Part shown: positions 13,988 to 19,545 of the stretch, one piece after another
Position numbering within the stretch: position 1 is the first letter of the stretch
Layout of the letters: every line of letters begins with the position of its first letter
Assembly: GCA_017462385.1 (NCBI GenBank)
Contig: JAFTRE010000015.1
Span: 1-40,800 of the forward strand
Length of the DNA stretch: 40,800 nt
Direction of reading: 5' to 3'
DNA from: Clostridia bacterium
Lineage (GTDB): Bacteria; Bacillota; Clostridia; Oscillospirales; CAG-272
Position numbers and translations under genes: made by a program
Notes under the pieces: generated by a model
The model's database searches: none
Told to the model about the DNA's origin: nothing
The model's input: only the letters and a program-made list of their open reading frames with translations

Positions 13988-14021
13988 TTATAATGAATAA
14001 ATGGCAACTTGGAGAATGATT

Positions 14022-14831
14022 ATGAAAGATAATTTTGAAAAAAAAGAACATATGCCGAAAAACGGCTCTTATCGTGCGTCGACACCCCGCGAGCCCGCGC
14101 CGGGCGCGGTCATCGGGCGCAATGCCGTCCGTGAATTGCTCAAATCCGGCCGCGAGATAGACAAGCTTTTTGTCCGCCGCGGCGATCGCGAGGGCTCTAT
14201 CGTCGTGCTTATCGCCGAGGCCAAGTCTGCGGGTATTCCCGTTGTTGAGGTCGAGCGCAACAAACTGGACGAGCTGTCGGGCGGCGCAAACCATCAGGGC
14301 ATTGTCGCTATGGCGGCCGAAAAGGATTACTGCGATATCGAGGACATTTTAGCCATCGCCGCAGAGCGGGGAGAAGCGCCGCTTATCGTCATCGCCGACG
14401 GCATTACCGACCCGTACAATCTCGGTTCTGTCATTCGTTGCGCCGAGGGCGTGGGCGCGCACGGACTTATCATACCCAAGCGCCGCGCGGCGGGGCTTAC
14501 TCCGCTGGTCACAAAGGCGTCGGCGGGCGCGGTTGAGCACCTCGCCATTGCCAAGGTGCCCAATATCGCCGCGGCGGTCGATAAGCTGAAAGAGGCGGGC
14601 GTGTGGGTGTATGCCGCCGATATGGAGGGGCAGAATTATTACGATACCGACTTCACCGGCGCTTGCGCCATAGTTATGGGCAGCGAGGGCGACGGAATTT
14701 CAAGACTGGTGCTTGAAAAATGCGATGTCAAGGTGACTATCCCCATGTACGGCAAGGTCAATTCATTCAACGTCGCGACCGCGGCGGCGGTGCTGCTTGC
14801 AGAGGCATCTCGCCAGCATCATAAAAAATGA
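14022..14831 (+). CDS. rlmB: TrmH/SpoU-family rRNA 2'-O-methyltransferase (RlmB-like)
   Basis: SpoU-type enzymes transfer methyl from SAM to a ribose 2'-OH; RlmB modifies 23S rRNA. The 269 residues show an N-terminal substrate-binding domain (VIGRNAVRELLKSGREIDKL) and the three SPOUT motifs: NLGSVIRCAEGVGAHGLIIP (motif 1), IVMGSEGDGIS (motif 2) and IPMYGKVNSFNVATAAAVLL (motif 3), which form the knotted SAM site. ATG 14022 is chosen because TTGGAG precedes it by 7 bases; an ATG 21 bases upstream lacks a ribosome site. The N-terminal 25 residues are polar and variable. The exact rRNA position is inferred from the subfamily. Confidence 0.92.
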   Translation: MKDNFEKKEHMPKNGSYRASTPREPAPGAVIGRNAVRELLKSGREIDKLFVRRGDREGSIVVLIAEAKSAGIPVVEVERNKLDELSGGANHQGIVAMAAEKDYCDIEDILAIAAERGEAPLIVIADGITDPYNLGSVIRCAEGVGAHGLIIPKRRAAGLTPLVTKASAGAVEHLAIAKVPNIAAAVDKLKEAGVWVYAADMEGQNYYDTDFTGACAIVMGSEGDGISRLVLEKCDVKVTIPMYGKVNSFNVATAAAVLLAEASRQHHKK

Positions 14832-14863: not shown

Positions 14864-17635
14864 ATGAGCGGCAAAAATGAAAATGATATAAATGACGTGC
14901 TGGGTAAGCTGCGCGCGTCGGTGGATAAGACGGAGAAAAGTTCAAAAAAGCCGAGCAAAAGCGATGTTTTTGACCGCGAGATAGCGGCGCTGATACAAAA
15001 ACAGCTCAACACCCGAGAAAGCGCCGGCGGCGTTGCGAACGATGCCGAGCCGCAGGAGGAGGGCAGCTCTCCGTTTTACTCGGACGAGATACGTTTGGAG
15101 GACTTTGTCATTGAGAATGACGCGTCGAAAGGAATTGAAAATGAGTCTATACCCGAGACTGTTGTAGAACCGATTGAGCCAACTTCCGAGGATATTCCCG
15201 AAGAACTTCCGAGGGAACCTGCAGAAGAGGTTTTCGGGGATGCTGACGAGCCTGTTGTTGATGAAATTGTCGAGGAAATGGTCGACGGGATCACAGACGA
15301 GATTACAGACGGGGACTTGCCCGTTGAGCAACAGGAAATGCCGCCCGCTGTCATGCAGGCGCTTGAAGATGCGTTCAGCGCTTCCGAAACGGCAGAGCCG
15401 GATGAGCCTATCGATTTTTTTGACGAGTCCGAGGAGATCGAGCCTGTTGAGATCATAGAGGATGAGCCCGAAGAGATTGAGCCTACCGATGTCATAGAGG
15501 ACGAGCGCGAGGATATCGAGCCCGTCGAGACCATAGATGATGAGTCGGAAGCGCCCGAACCGCTCGACACAGTTGACGATATAGATGTTGCTCCGCGCAT
15601 TAGAACATTGGAGGAGCTTGAGATACCCGAGCAGCTTGATATACTTGATGATGCGGAACTGAATGACGGGCTTGAGGCTGAGTCTGCTGACGAGCCGCAG
15701 GGTAGTATTGAATTATCTGAGCTTGAATCGGAAACGTCGGAGGTCGTTGAGACACTTCAGCTTGTGGAACAGTCGACGCCCGAAGATACAAATGAAGCTG
15801 AATTGGAAACGGTAGCGCAGGAGACTGAGACCGCGGAGCCGGCTCCGGAACAAATATCCGAGCCGGAGAAAACGGAGCCATCTCCCGTACTTCCGGGCGC
15901 ATGGGCATATCGAGGTGCCGAATACCGTTCCCATGAGCAGGATGCTCAAATAAACGCGGACTACAATAAGTGCCGTGCCATTGCCGTGATAAAGCTTATA
16001 GTCGGAGTCATACTTTGCGGACTGTGCGGCTTTATGGAGAATGTGGGCTATTTCGGCTTTTTGCTGATACGTCCCTTTGAGCCTACCGAGAACCCTGTGA
16101 TATATGCGACAACATTGACAGTGCTTCTTGTGTGTTGCGCACTGCTGTGCTTGCGTCAGCTTAAAGACGGTATTGTGAGTGTGTTTGCGTTTGAGCCTGA
16201 ACCTCACGCAATAACATTTTTTGCAGTGGCTGTCAGCTTTATTTATAATATTGTGATGCTGATAATCCGCCCCGAGCATATGATGCTTTATAATTTCCCC
16301 GCGACACTTTGTATTGTAATGACACTTGTCGGCGAGCTTTTGAGCATATGCCGCGAGAAAAACAGCTTTGATGTTGTCAGCTGTGAGAGCGTGCGCTATT
16401 CACCGGAACGAGAAACCAAGGCCTTCGAGGAGAAGTATAATGCTCGCGCGATCAGAGCGGGAGCAGAGCCGAGGCGCGTTTATAACATGGTAACCACCCG
16501 CTTCAGCGGCGGATATTTCAAATATACCAACCAAAAGAAAAAGGGAATATATATTCTCAACTTTATGCTGTTGCCGCTGCTTGCGGTGGGCTTTGTCGAG
16601 TTTGTTATAGCGCTGTCGACACGTCAAGCCGTGTCTGTGGCGCTCGGAGCGTTTACGGCGACTGTGCTGATAGCATTACCGGCGCCCTTGCTCATTTCAC
16701 TTGTACTGCCTCCGCTTATGTCGTCATTGCGACTTAAAAAGCGGGGAAGTGCCGTGCTCGGTGACGGCTCGGTCGATGAATTTGCGCACCCGAAGCTGTT
16801 GGTGTTTGAGGACCGCGATATGTTTCCCGCCGAGCGCATCGGTACAAAAGGGCTCAAGCTTTACGATGGCTTTGAGCTTTACGACGTGCTCATCAAAACG
16901 GGCTCGCTGTTCGCTCATATCGGCGGACCGCTGGGCGAGCTGTTTGAAGCTGAGAATTCCAAATATCACCGCATACGCGATGTAAAGCTGGTCAAGGTGG
17001 AGCGCGGTGGCGTTGAAGCCGTGCTTGACGGGAACGTCAATATACTTGCCGGCAACATAGATTTTATAGAAAAATACGGCATATATCCCAAGCGTGTCCC
17101 GAAAGACGAGCAGCTTATCGCCGAGGGCGAGGTGTCGGTCATATACATCGTTATCGATTCGCGGCCTGCCGCACGTCTGTATGCCGATTACCGTACAGAC
17201 GAGTTGTTTGAAAAACGCATTTCCGAGCTGTGTCGCTCGCAGGGCGCGGCGGCGATACGCACCTCCGACCCCGGTATCGACGAGACAATGATCTCGCGCA
17301 AGCGTACCGTGAGCGAATATGAGCTTGCCGTTATTCGTCCGGGCTTTGCTCGCGAAGGAGAGGAACGAGAGTCATTTGAGGCGGGAATTGTGAGTCTCGG
17401 CGATCCATGCGGCGTCGTGGATGCGGTCAACGAGTGTCACAAACTCAAAAAAAGCAGGCGAGCAGGCATGATGCTTTACTTCTTTGTGTTCCTTGCGAAC
17501 ATTATTGTGTCAACACTTCTCGTTGTTTTCAAGCTCATTCCATATATCGCTTCGGGACTTGTTGTGTTGTATATGCTGCTGTGGCTGCTCCCGATCGTAT
17601 TTTTGCCCGGCGTGTTTGATACCTCTAAAAAGTAA
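14864..17635 (+). CDS. Large acidic-tailed membrane protein resembling a catalytically dead P1B-type ATPase
   Basis: This 923-residue protein is not a standard family. Residues 1 to about 350 are a soluble, very acidic region with a 13-residue tandem repeat (EEIEPVEIIEDEP-type, about 190-240). Then come eight hydrophobic segments arranged 4+2+2: about 373-390, 412-430, 450-468, 477-495; 562-584, 588-617; 869-889, 893-915. That is the P1B ATPase layout. Segment 6 has IALPAPLL (603-610) where transporters have CPC or similar. It is followed by LKKRGSAVLGDGSVDEFAHP and VFEDRDMF (647-654) exactly where VFDKTGT is expected, so the phosphorylated Asp is replaced by Glu. Later RTSDPG (T800, D802) sits at the TGD position and FEAGIVSLGD at the AADVVLxxD position. 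The A-domain TGE motif and GDGxND are absent. The homology is my inference by motif alignment. The gene lies 32 bases after rlmB with AAAGGAG before ATG. Confidence 0.6.
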   Translation: MSGKNENDINDVLGKLRASVDKTEKSSKKPSKSDVFDREIAALIQKQLNTRESAGGVANDAEPQEEGSSPFYSDEIRLEDFVIENDASKGIENESIPETVVEPIEPTSEDIPEELPREPAEEVFGDADEPVVDEIVEEMVDGITDEITDGDLPVEQQEMPPAVMQALEDAFSASETAEPDEPIDFFDESEEIEPVEIIEDEPEEIEPTDVIEDEREDIEPVETIDDESEAPEPLDTVDDIDVAPRIRTLEELEIPEQLDILDDAELNDGLEAESADEPQGSIELSELESETSEVVETLQLVEQSTPEDTNEAELETVAQETETAEPAPEQISEPEKTEPSPVLPGAWAYRGAEYRSHEQDAQINADYNKCRAIAVIKLIVGVILCGLCGFMENVGYFGFLLIRPFEPTENPVIYATTLTVLLVCCALLCLRQLKDGIVSVFAFEPEPHAITFFAVAVSFIYNIVMLIIRPEHMMLYNFPATLCIVMTLVGELLSICREKNSFDVVSCESVRYSPERETKAFEEKYNARAIRAGAEPRRVYNMVTTRFSGGYFKYTNQKKKGIYILNFMLLPLLAVGFVEFVIALSTRQAVSVALGAFTATVLIALPAPLLISLVLPPLMSSLRLKKRGSAVLGDGSVDEFAHPKLLVFEDRDMFPAERIGTKGLKLYDGFELYDVLIKTGSLFAHIGGPLGELFEAENSKYHRIRDVKLVKVERGGVEAVLDGNVNILAGNIDFIEKYGIYPKRVPKDEQLIAEGEVSVIYIVIDSRPAARLYADYRTDELFEKRISELCRSQGAAAIRTSDPGIDETMISRKRTVSEYELAVIRPGFAREGEERESFEAGIVSLGDPCGVVDAVNECHKLKKSRRAGMMLYFFVFLANIIVSTLLVVFKLIPYIASGLVVLYMLLWLLPIVFLPGVFDTSKK

Positions 17636-17655: not shown

Positions 17656-19545
17656 ATGACTAATGATAAAAAAGATATACGCCGCATGAGTGGTGTGCTC
17701 GGCTCGGTTCAAAAGCCTGGACGCTACTCGGGCGGTGAGTACGGTGAGGTGCTGAAGGACAAATCGCTCGTCAAGGCACGCTTTGCTTTCTGCTTTCCCG
17801 ACTCATACGAGATAGGAATGTCCAACCTCGGCATGCGCCTGCTTTACGGCGCGCTGAACTCCGACCCCGATATCTGGTGCGAGCGTGTTTTCGCGCCGTG
17901 GGTAGACATGGAGGAGCAGATGCGGGCTCATGACATACCGTTGTGCGCACTTGAGAGCGGTGACCCGCTTTCCGAATTTGACATCATCGGCTTTACATTG
18001 CAATATGAAATGTGCTACACCAACGTGCTCAATATGCTGCAGCTTGCTAAGCTGCCCATTCGGGCGGTAGAGCGCGGCGAGGATTGCCCCATCATAATCG
18101 GCGGCGGTCCCTGCACATATAATCCCGAGCCCGTAGCCGACTTTTTCGATTGCTTCTCTATCGGAGAGGGCGAGACAATGCTCAACGAGTTCACCGAGCT
18201 GTACATAAAAATGAAAGCCGAGGGACGCTACAGCCGTGCTGAATTTCTACACGAGGCGGCGCGCACCATCAGCGGCATTTATGTTCCGTCGCTGTTCGAG
18301 GTCAGCTATAACGATGACGGCACAGTAAAGGCATACACTCCAAAATACGATGACATACCGCCACGCGTTGTCAAGCGCATAATGACGGATATGGACACCG
18401 CATTTTTTCCGCAACGTGTTGTTATGCCGTACATCGAGACGGTGCACGACCGCATAATGTTGGAGGTGTGCCGCGGATGCATACGCGGTTGTCGCTTCTG
18501 TCAGGCGGGAATGGTGTACAGACCCGTGCGCGAAAAGTCACCCGAGGTGCTTGACAGACAGGCGAGAGAGCTTTACGAGCAGACCGGGTATGAAGAAATG
18601 TCGCTGTCCTCGCTGTCTATCAGCGACTATACAAAGCTGCCCGAGCTGACCGACAGACTGCTGTCTTGGACGGACGAAAAAATGGTCAGCCTGTCACTGC
18701 CGTCGCTTCGCGTTGACAGCTTTTCAAAGCAGCTCATGGAGCGAGTCGCGTCGGTGCGTTCGTCATCGCTGACGTTTGCGCCCGAGGCGGGAACACAGAG
18801 ATTGCGCGACGTTATCAATAAAAACGTAACACTTGACGACCTGCTGAATGCCGTCGGTGTTGCGTTTGAGGGCGGCAAGACTTCGGTCAAGCTGTACTTT
18901 ATGCAGGGACTTCCGACTGAGACCGAATCCGACCTTGACGGTATCGCCGACATGGCGCGCGAGGTCATTGAGGCATATTACCGCTCGCCCGGAAGGGTGA
19001 AGGGAAGACAGCCGTCGGTCACCGTCAGCGTTTCCAACTTTATTCCCAAGCCCTTCACACCCTTCCAGTGGGAGGCGGCTGACACACCCGAGCAGCTTGA
19101 AGCAAAGCAGAAATACCTGCGCGGGCGCATCACTGACCGCAAGATACATTATCAGTATCACAATGTCGGCACCTCGCATATCGAGGCGGTTCTGGCGCGC
19201 GGTGATAGACGTCTGTCGAGAGTACTCGAAGCGGCGCTTGATGCGGGCTTTAAATATGATGCGTGGGACGAGTTCTTCAATTATGAGGGCTGGATGGAAT
19301 TGTTCCGTAAAACAGGCATTGACCCCGCCTTTTATGCTAACCGCACTTTTGGGCGCGATGAGGTGCTGCCGTGGGATGTTATCGACTGCGGCGTGACAAA
19401 GTCATTCTTACTTCGCGAGCGCGACCGCGCATACGCCGAGAAAACAACGCCCAACTGCCGTGAAAAGTGCAGTGGTTGCGGCGCAAATAAACTGGGCGGC
19501 AAGGGCATTTGCTGTCCGCAGACTTGTGGGGAGGATGCGCAATAA
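17656..19545 (+). CDS. B12-binding-domain radical SAM protein (TIGR03960 family)
   Basis: The 629-residue protein has an N-terminal cobalamin-binding-like Rossmann region (FAFCFPDSYEIGMSNLGMRL, DIIGFTLQYEMCYTNVLNML, IIIGGGPCTYNPEP). The radical SAM core carries the 4Fe-4S motif CIRGCRFC (Cys275, Cys279, Cys282) and ends in a cysteine-rich tail (CREKCSGCGANKLGGKGICC). It matches the conserved Firmicute TIGR03960 family, nearly always adjacent to TIGR03936 as here, where the stop overlaps the next start. Its substrate is not established as far as I know. Association with YlmH and RlmB suggests a role in RNA or ribosome modification, which is inference. Confidence 0.92.
   Translation: MTNDKKDIRRMSGVLGSVQKPGRYSGGEYGEVLKDKSLVKARFAFCFPDSYEIGMSNLGMRLLYGALNSDPDIWCERVFAPWVDMEEQMRAHDIPLCALESGDPLSEFDIIGFTLQYEMCYTNVLNMLQLAKLPIRAVERGEDCPIIIGGGPCTYNPEPVADFFDCFSIGEGETMLNEFTELYIKMKAEGRYSRAEFLHEAARTISGIYVPSLFEVSYNDDGTVKAYTPKYDDIPPRVVKRIMTDMDTAFFPQRVVMPYIETVHDRIMLEVCRGCIRGCRFCQAGMVYRPVREKSPEVLDRQARELYEQTGYEEMSLSSLSISDYTKLPELTDRLLSWTDEKMVSLSLPSLRVDSFSKQLMERVASVRSSSLTFAPEAGTQRLRDVINKNVTLDDLLNAVGVAFEGGKTSVKLYFMQGLPTETESDLDGIADMAREVIEAYYRSPGRVKGRQPSVTVSVSNFIPKPFTPFQWEAADTPEQLEAKQKYLRGRITDRKIHYQYHNVGTSHIEAVLARGDRRLSRVLEAALDAGFKYDAWDEFFNYEGWMELFRKTGIDPAFYANRTFGRDEVLPWDVIDCGVTKSFLLRERDRAYAEKTTPNCREKCSGCGANKLGGKGICCPQTCGEDAQ

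Follow-up and report, generated by a model that had tools for sequence, protein, structure and literature searches.

A P1B-type protein that has probably lost catalysis is near-universal in one order of Clostridia

Why would bacteria keep a membrane protein built like a metal-pumping ATPase when the residues that power such pumps are missing from it? The question is raised by a 923-residue protein, labelled X here, that is encoded by an open reading frame (14,864–17,635, start codon ATG) in a 40,800-nucleotide stretch of DNA from a Clostridia bacterium of the order Oscillospirales (contig JAFTRE010000015.1, positions 1 to 40,800; the whole stretch is called the window). X and all features located below lie on the + strand. 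Pseudoenzymes are well known among kinases, phosphatases and caspases. Among the matches listed from open-licence papers, none described a bacterial P-type pseudo-ATPase, and the nearest case was human TMEM94. An earlier note, made from the DNA letters alone, had taken X for a dead P-type ATPase kept intact and suggested a new family of pseudoenzymes. By its sequence profile X belongs to the P1B (CopA-type) ATPase superfamily, and our comparisons indicate that it is very probably a pseudoenzyme, that is, a catalytically dead P1B-derived protein retained by selection.

Relationship of X to P1B pumps

X is a near-universal gene of one order, and neither Pfam nor NCBIfam recognizes the copy in the window. 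Taken alone, its sequence matched no family in either database at E-values up to 10, and a phmmer search of the PDB with it returned just two SusD chains (E 0.23–0.24). Comparisons were made with profiles of the core of X (residues 352–923), as distinct from its tail (residues 1–351). Profile A1 holds 30 cores, from the window and 29 loci, drawn from the 30 best of 38 genomes with X; A5 is an 81-row alignment of X; in each, the first row is the window's. A3 comprises 15 P1B pumps from genomes of the window's order, and A4 comprises 12 of the 15 P2-type loci at hand. The profile–profile comparison with P-type ATPases, on which the earlier note had staked its proposal, gave a significant match: hhalign aligned A1 with A3 at 99.8% (E 9.1e-28) over 548 columns spanning the membrane, phosphorylation (P) and nucleotide-binding (N) domains, and with A4 far more weakly (37%, E 3.5e-4). 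In the PDB, A1 matched CopA (3rfu, E 2.4e-24), further Cu ATPases and ZntA (4umv, E 5.5e-5). We assign X to the P1B superfamily because of the hhalign match to P1B pumps and the PDB match to CopA.

Hydropathy averaged over the 81 rows has eight membrane maxima in the core, centred on residues 382, 421, 459, 484, 573, 602, 879 and 904, which gives the eight helices of a P1B ATPase in the 4+2+2 layout first read from the window's letters. Helices 1–4 (residues 372–494; 15,977–16,345) correspond to MA, MB, M1 and M2 of P1B pumps by hydropathy and hhalign, and helices 5–6 (residues 563–612; 16,550–16,699) and 7–8 (residues 869–914; 17,468–17,605) follow. A juxtamembrane segment ahead of the first helix (15,917–15,991) carries the pattern EY....Q.......Y, with Glu in 29 of 30 aligned rows and a gap in the remaining one.

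Fate of the catalytic motifs

Residue roles in phosphorylation, dephosphorylation and the Mg2+, ATP and metal contacts are those of P-type ATPases. At the DKTGT position, X has EDRDMFP (residues 649–655; 16,808–16,828), and the hhalign alignment agrees with the initial reading of VFEDRDMF (residues 647–654) as the occupant of these columns. The column of the catalytic Asp holds D in 9/30 rows of A1 and 66/81 of A5, and otherwise E, S, N, A or others; the Lys column holds D (30/30 and 80/81, counts being given for A1 and A5 in this order from here on), and the Phe at residue 654 is present in 27/30 and 79/81. Neither the DKTGT nor the GDGxND pattern occurs in any of 110 homologues (0/110 each). 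The EHPL position of the N domain is occupied by GGPL (residues 687–690; 16,922–16,933), with G in the column of the SEHPL His (23/30, 81/81) and F in that of the nucleotide-binding Glu (24/30, 80/81).

The phosphorylated Asp, TGE and GDGxND had all been reported as lost, and columns and patterns bear this out with one correction, that GDGxND is deleted, not altered. Around 33 P1B residues that contain GDGIND are left unpaired with X by hhalign, the place of the deletion being near residues 837/838 (17,372–17,377), and AGIVS of X pairs with the next strand, ADVVLM. The AGIVSLGDPCG segment had been mistaken for the GDGxND counterpart; AGIVSLGDP is not a remnant of that motif, because the GDGxND stretch has no counterpart in X. 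The A domain, which had been put at about 65 residues, is indeed reduced, to a remnant that we measured at about 60 residues (16,355–16,534) and that is without a conserved TGE. In a row-by-row scan the letters TGE were found somewhere in the core in 4/30 and 14/81 rows, and within the remnant in one row per set (1/30, 1/81), at different positions.

Replacement of TGD by TSDPG (residues 800–804; 17,261–17,275; T.DPN in the family) was placed correctly, as the hhalign alignment agrees, and amounts to a partial loss: the middle Gly is not kept and no row of A1 or A5 has the letters TGD at these columns, but Thr or Ser (30/30, 81/81) and Asp (30/30, 81/81) are retained, followed by Pro in 26/30 and 81/81. 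The helix-6 proline site is collinear with that of P1B pumps, as had been proposed: hhalign aligns P606 with the proline of CPC, which is kept in 28/30 and 81/81 rows. CPC-type ligands are absent beside P606, and no row of A1 or A5 has CPC, CPH, SPC or TPC there; the preceding residue is L, A, T, V or M in 30/30 rows, the following one is mostly V, F, L or A, and a Cys stands two residues ahead of the proline in 11/30 and 11/81. The missing motifs are missing in homologues as well, across the 30 and 81 aligned rows and, for DKTGT and GDGxND, the 110 homologues. Pumping by X seems unlikely because the residues for phosphorylation, dephosphorylation, Mg2+ and ATP contacts and the metal ligands have been lost.

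Distribution and selection

In a first survey, X was found in 38 of 39 genomes, including the window's own, and the sole miss was a 55%-complete genome. Across the window's order it is present in 275 of 295 genomes (A1, E 1e-34) and in 219 of the 225 good ones (completeness ≥90%, contamination ≤5%). Two matches were seen in 2 of the 275 genomes and also in G013 of the 39-genome survey. A renewed search, at E 0.001, of G027 and the six good genomes lacking X gave only partial matches of at most 83 bits, mostly like ordinary P1B pumps, with a 27-bit match in G479 of unclear kind. Beyond the order, X was found in none of the genomes sampled. In a class sample of 196 genomes, full-length matches of at least 195.8 bits came from 7 genomes, all of the window's order; outside it, the best among the matches listed scored 102.3 bits, over the part common with ordinary P1B pumps. 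In a phylum sample of 299 genomes, X was found in 3, again all of the window's order. Named records of the X-bearing order come mostly from guts and rumens, according to their titles. X is order-wide and not a local oddity.

A tree with P1B and P2 pumps (18 of the 30 X rows, 15 P1B and 6 of the 12 P2) united the X rows in one group (Shimodaira–Hasegawa-like approximate likelihood ratio test, 100) on a stem of 2.86 changes per column. Because this stem is long, trees cannot place X among the P1B pumps, and the program warned of meeting long branches.

The core of X is under strong purifying selection. In 14 pairs of close homologues (core identity 0.90–0.96), chosen from 87 candidates with each protein in at most two pairs, the median ratio of nonsynonymous to synonymous substitution rates (dN/dS) was 0.046 in the core, against 0.20 in the tail; dS exceeded 1 in several pairs, which makes these ratios rough. 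From named genomes, 115 relatives were found and the best 80 kept (L061–L140, the named loci); the frame of X is closed at both ends in 77 of these 80, and the remaining three are open at the contig's 5' end. Within the head formed by the P and N domains, the former catalytic-loop columns were better conserved than random windows, with 2 of 20,000 draws as high for A1 and 0 of 20,000 for A5, a result that is supportive and not independent because the windows, although set by P1B motif mapping, were picked with knowledge of the alignment. Profiles, motif columns, distribution and dN/dS concur on a dead P-type ATPase that has been kept intact.

Gene neighbourhood

Directly upstream of X, the window carries a gene for an rRNA methylase of the SpoU family (14,001–14,831; Pfam), a conserved partner by synteny, which we name rlmB by its family. 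The 80 named loci have rlmB upstream of X on the same strand in 76 cases; in the other four, the contig ends at most 358 base pairs (bp) upstream of the X frame. The gap between the stop codon of rlmB and the earliest start that X could use has a median of 45.5 bp and lies between −100 and 150 in 72 of the 76. We also read 20 longer stretches, 2 of them from the window's family, and rlmB was directly upstream on the same strand in both of these and in 17 of the 18 from other families. The exception (L141, from genome G024 of family f2) has 6.5 kb upstream of X without rlmB. When all frames were clustered, the rlmB cluster appeared in 15 of the 20 stretches and any other neighbour cluster in at most 4. 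Thus, rlmB is the sole neighbour of X found to be conserved across families, and this lasting pairing suggests co-expression with ribosome maturation.

On the other side, X is followed by a radical S-adenosylmethionine (SAM) gene (17,656–19,545; Pfam Radical_SAM_N2 and Radical_SAM), which adjoins it in the window's family and relatives, and then by a DUF2344 gene (Pfam). The radical SAM gene was found in 62 and the DUF2344 gene in 58 of the 80 named loci, where flanks are often cut. Among the 20 stretches, both adjoin X only in the two from the window's family, and one other has a DUF2344 match 6.4 kb away on the opposite strand. Of the original picture of X as set between rlmB and a radical SAM gene, the rlmB link is therefore general, whereas the radical SAM link was seen only near the window's family.

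Two further genes, named by eye, are frequent near rlmB in the 80 named loci: one, in 38 loci, resembles a sigma-factor gene, and the other, in 26 loci, is short and zinc-ribbon-like. Neither is present in any of the 20 longer stretches or in the window.

The acidic tail

Ahead of the core, the window's X has an acidic N-terminal tail (residues 1–351; 14,864–15,916) that is probably disordered, judging from its composition (113 Asp and Glu against 19 Lys and Arg). Across 78 full-length proteins, from the window and 77 of the named loci, the tail has 172–827 residues (median 327.5) and a median net charge of −68.5. It includes, in the window, an acidic 13-residue repeat, detected as a 39-bp array of 3.2 copies (15,422–15,544). 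The tail and its repeats had been described as a 350-residue domain added to the protein; extent and repeats hold, and not every member of the family carries the tail.

Short motifs recur in the tails. Motif A, DINDVLGKLRASV in the window (residues 8–20; 14,885–14,923; assigned there by eye), is the counterpart of s.eELL.rLk in homologues; its strict pattern occurs in 34 of the 78 proteins, whereas 200 shuffles averaged 2.3 and never exceeded 7. A possible motif B, FDREIAALIQKQLNT (residues 36–50; 14,969–15,013), corresponds to eLdi.dLL.kYLpe and was likewise assigned by eye, without statistics. Motif C has the consensus DETDINLMxAFGMEDEL and lies around 35–62 residues ahead of the core; a regular expression for it matched 57 of the 80 named loci, and several more have divergent forms by eye. 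At E < 1e-6, a search of 23 genomes found motif C in X (six matches) and in no other protein; 12 weaker matches (E 0.007–0.83) comprised three weak ones to X and nine chance-like places.

Possible functions of X

We lean towards the view that X, derived from a P1B pump, no longer pumps and acts as a scaffold or receptor anchored in the membrane. On this scheme, a CopA-like P1B ATPase would have given up its capacity to bind metal, to be phosphorylated and dephosphorylated and to bind ATP in the normal way close to the base of the window's order, and X has since been kept there as a core gene. Working without pumping, it may serve as a membrane-anchored scaffold or receptor. Its N–P active site, apparently rebuilt as.DxDVFP / GGPL / T.DPN, could bind a partner or small ligand instead of ATP; such a rebuilding of the former ATP pocket is probable because few parts of the head are as well conserved as the loops of the former active site. 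Where present, the acidic tail might recruit cytosolic partners through its short motifs, and the stable pairing with rlmB suggests a requirement linked to ribosome maturation or to the rate of growth. A more specific form of the idea strikes us as improbable: that X is a receptor made from a copper pump, which would detect a cytosolic ligand in its former ATP pocket and, co-expressed with rlmB, tie ribosome maturation to the membrane as an order-defining core regulatory device.

Several observations weigh against the scaffold or receptor view or its parts. Six good genomes of the order seem to be without X, and the windows of the loop-conservation test were, as noted, picked with knowledge of the alignment. 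Family f10 (for example, L029 and L148) has no tail: open frames of 547–596 residues were found in 13/13 of the f10 rows among the matches listed, a count that covers 13 of the 19 f10 genomes with X. The unit shared by all is therefore the core, to which the tail is an addition, and a scaffold built on the tail cannot be what X provides universally. The window's X itself is without motif C, though its genus mates L002 and L003 carry it. Charge complementarity between the tail and the RlmB N-terminus was considered and rejected, as it gave no consistent signal, tails and RlmB not having been compared pairwise. A usable RlmB start was obtained for 65 of 76 loci, of which 52 had the expected motif, with an N-terminal extension of 12–141 residues whose charge had a median of +2.5 and was positive in 37 of 52. 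Finally, the Thr or Ser and Asp of TGD and a near-invariant Asp of the DKTGT loop remain in X and leave a small probability of rewired chemistry.

Those retained residues are the starting point for regarding X as a rewired enzyme, in which the Asp at residue 650, D652 and T800/D802 form a new haloacid dehalogenase (HAD)-like site that hydrolyses or transfers phosphate. The DxDVF loop of X resembles HAD motif I, T.D keeps motif II, and these loops are among the best-conserved of the head. We nevertheless rate such an enzyme as quite unlikely, given that motif IV (GDGxND) is deleted, that no substitute Lys or Asp pair stands out among the conserved columns listed, and that only 16/30 and 27/81 rows have the second Asp of DxD. 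Comparable doubt attaches to X as an ATP-independent transporter in which the bundle of eight helices lets an ion through or moves a lipid and the head acts as the gate. The membrane domain and its helix-breaking proline are kept (28/30, 81/81), and lipid-shaped density has been seen in the helix bundle of TMEM94 (PMC12134183). The membrane segments are, however, somewhat less conserved than the head (mean Jensen–Shannon divergence 0.37–0.40 versus 0.39–0.44 in A1, and 0.40–0.46 versus 0.50–0.60 in A5), and CPC-type ligands at the proline occur in 0 rows, despite the Cys at −2 in some.

It is also unlikely, in our estimate, that X is a regulatory or structural subunit that tunes an active P-type ATPase in the same cell. 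In other enzyme families, partners that lack catalytic activity are common, and potential targets are at hand, with P-type ATPase genes (PF00122) in 19/19 genomes of the order searched and DKTGT in 30/30 loci read; but no pump gene is conserved beside X, where rlmB is the sole cross-family neighbour found. A decaying gene, from which a pump is being lost, would explain why the catalytic motifs are gone, and is hardly credible: it is refuted by the core dN/dS, the closed frames in 77 of 80 loci and the order-wide presence of X. X offers a direct test of how the P-type fold is used without pumping, as well as a marker gene for the order.

Comparison with known systems

The nearest arrangement outside the order is in family f36, where a canonical CopA lies directly downstream of rlmB (L233–L236). 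It shares with X the gene order after rlmB and its P1B nature; unlike X, it is fully canonical, with CPC, DKTGT, TGE, TGD, GDGxND and an N-terminal GMxCxxC intact in 4/4 read, and its X-profile score is no higher than that of other P1B pumps. By coordinates, with a P1B cut-off of 1e-60, rlmB is followed by a P1B gene in 5 of 14 f36 genomes with an rlmB match; in the class sample, compared by reading, this order was seen only in G055 and G089, both f36, of 56 out-of-order genomes with an rlmB match. The f36 arrangement may reflect the ancestral gene order of X, or it may be coincidence. An rlmB tree of 59 rows did not place f36 relative to the window's order, whose 29 rlmB rows did not form one group.

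A second pseudo-P-type family, P2 (Ca2+-ATPase)-like, was noticed in the same order (L167–L172, from G001, G008, G005, G010, G011 and G004). These six account for 6 of the 9 PF00122 matches below 100 bits in the search of 19 genomes of the order. Like X, they have a P-type layout with catalytic motifs missing (DKTGT and GDGxND in 6/6); unlike X, they have kept the A domain (PF00122 matched in 6/6), with TGE at its proper place in 3/6. A profile of five of them matched P2 pumps at E 4.7e-73 and X weakly, at E 2.8e-5.

Human TMEM94 (ERMA), as described, resembles X in having a P-type-like architecture without TGES; it differs in being eukaryotic and in its ten helices. One study of TMEM94 reports that TGES is missing, that ATPase activity was not detected and that β,γ-methyleneadenosine 5'-triphosphate (AMPPCP) was bound at micromolar level, with a pump role left open; its closest relative in that work is SPCA (PMC12134183). 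Another report argues for a role as a Mg2+ ATPase or pump (PMC13322241).

Set beside the P1B pumps themselves (CopA 3rfu and ZntA 4umv), X has the same 4+2+2 helices, the xPx proline, one N-domain Gly and the Thr or Ser and Asp of TGD, and its P and N domains are equally spaced, with around 153 residues from the DKTGT column to the TGD column in both. It departs from them in that DKTGT, TGE, the N-domain His, the CPC ligands and GDGxND are all gone, the A domain is roughly halved, an acidic tail usually replaces the metal-binding domains, and the family was found in a single order.

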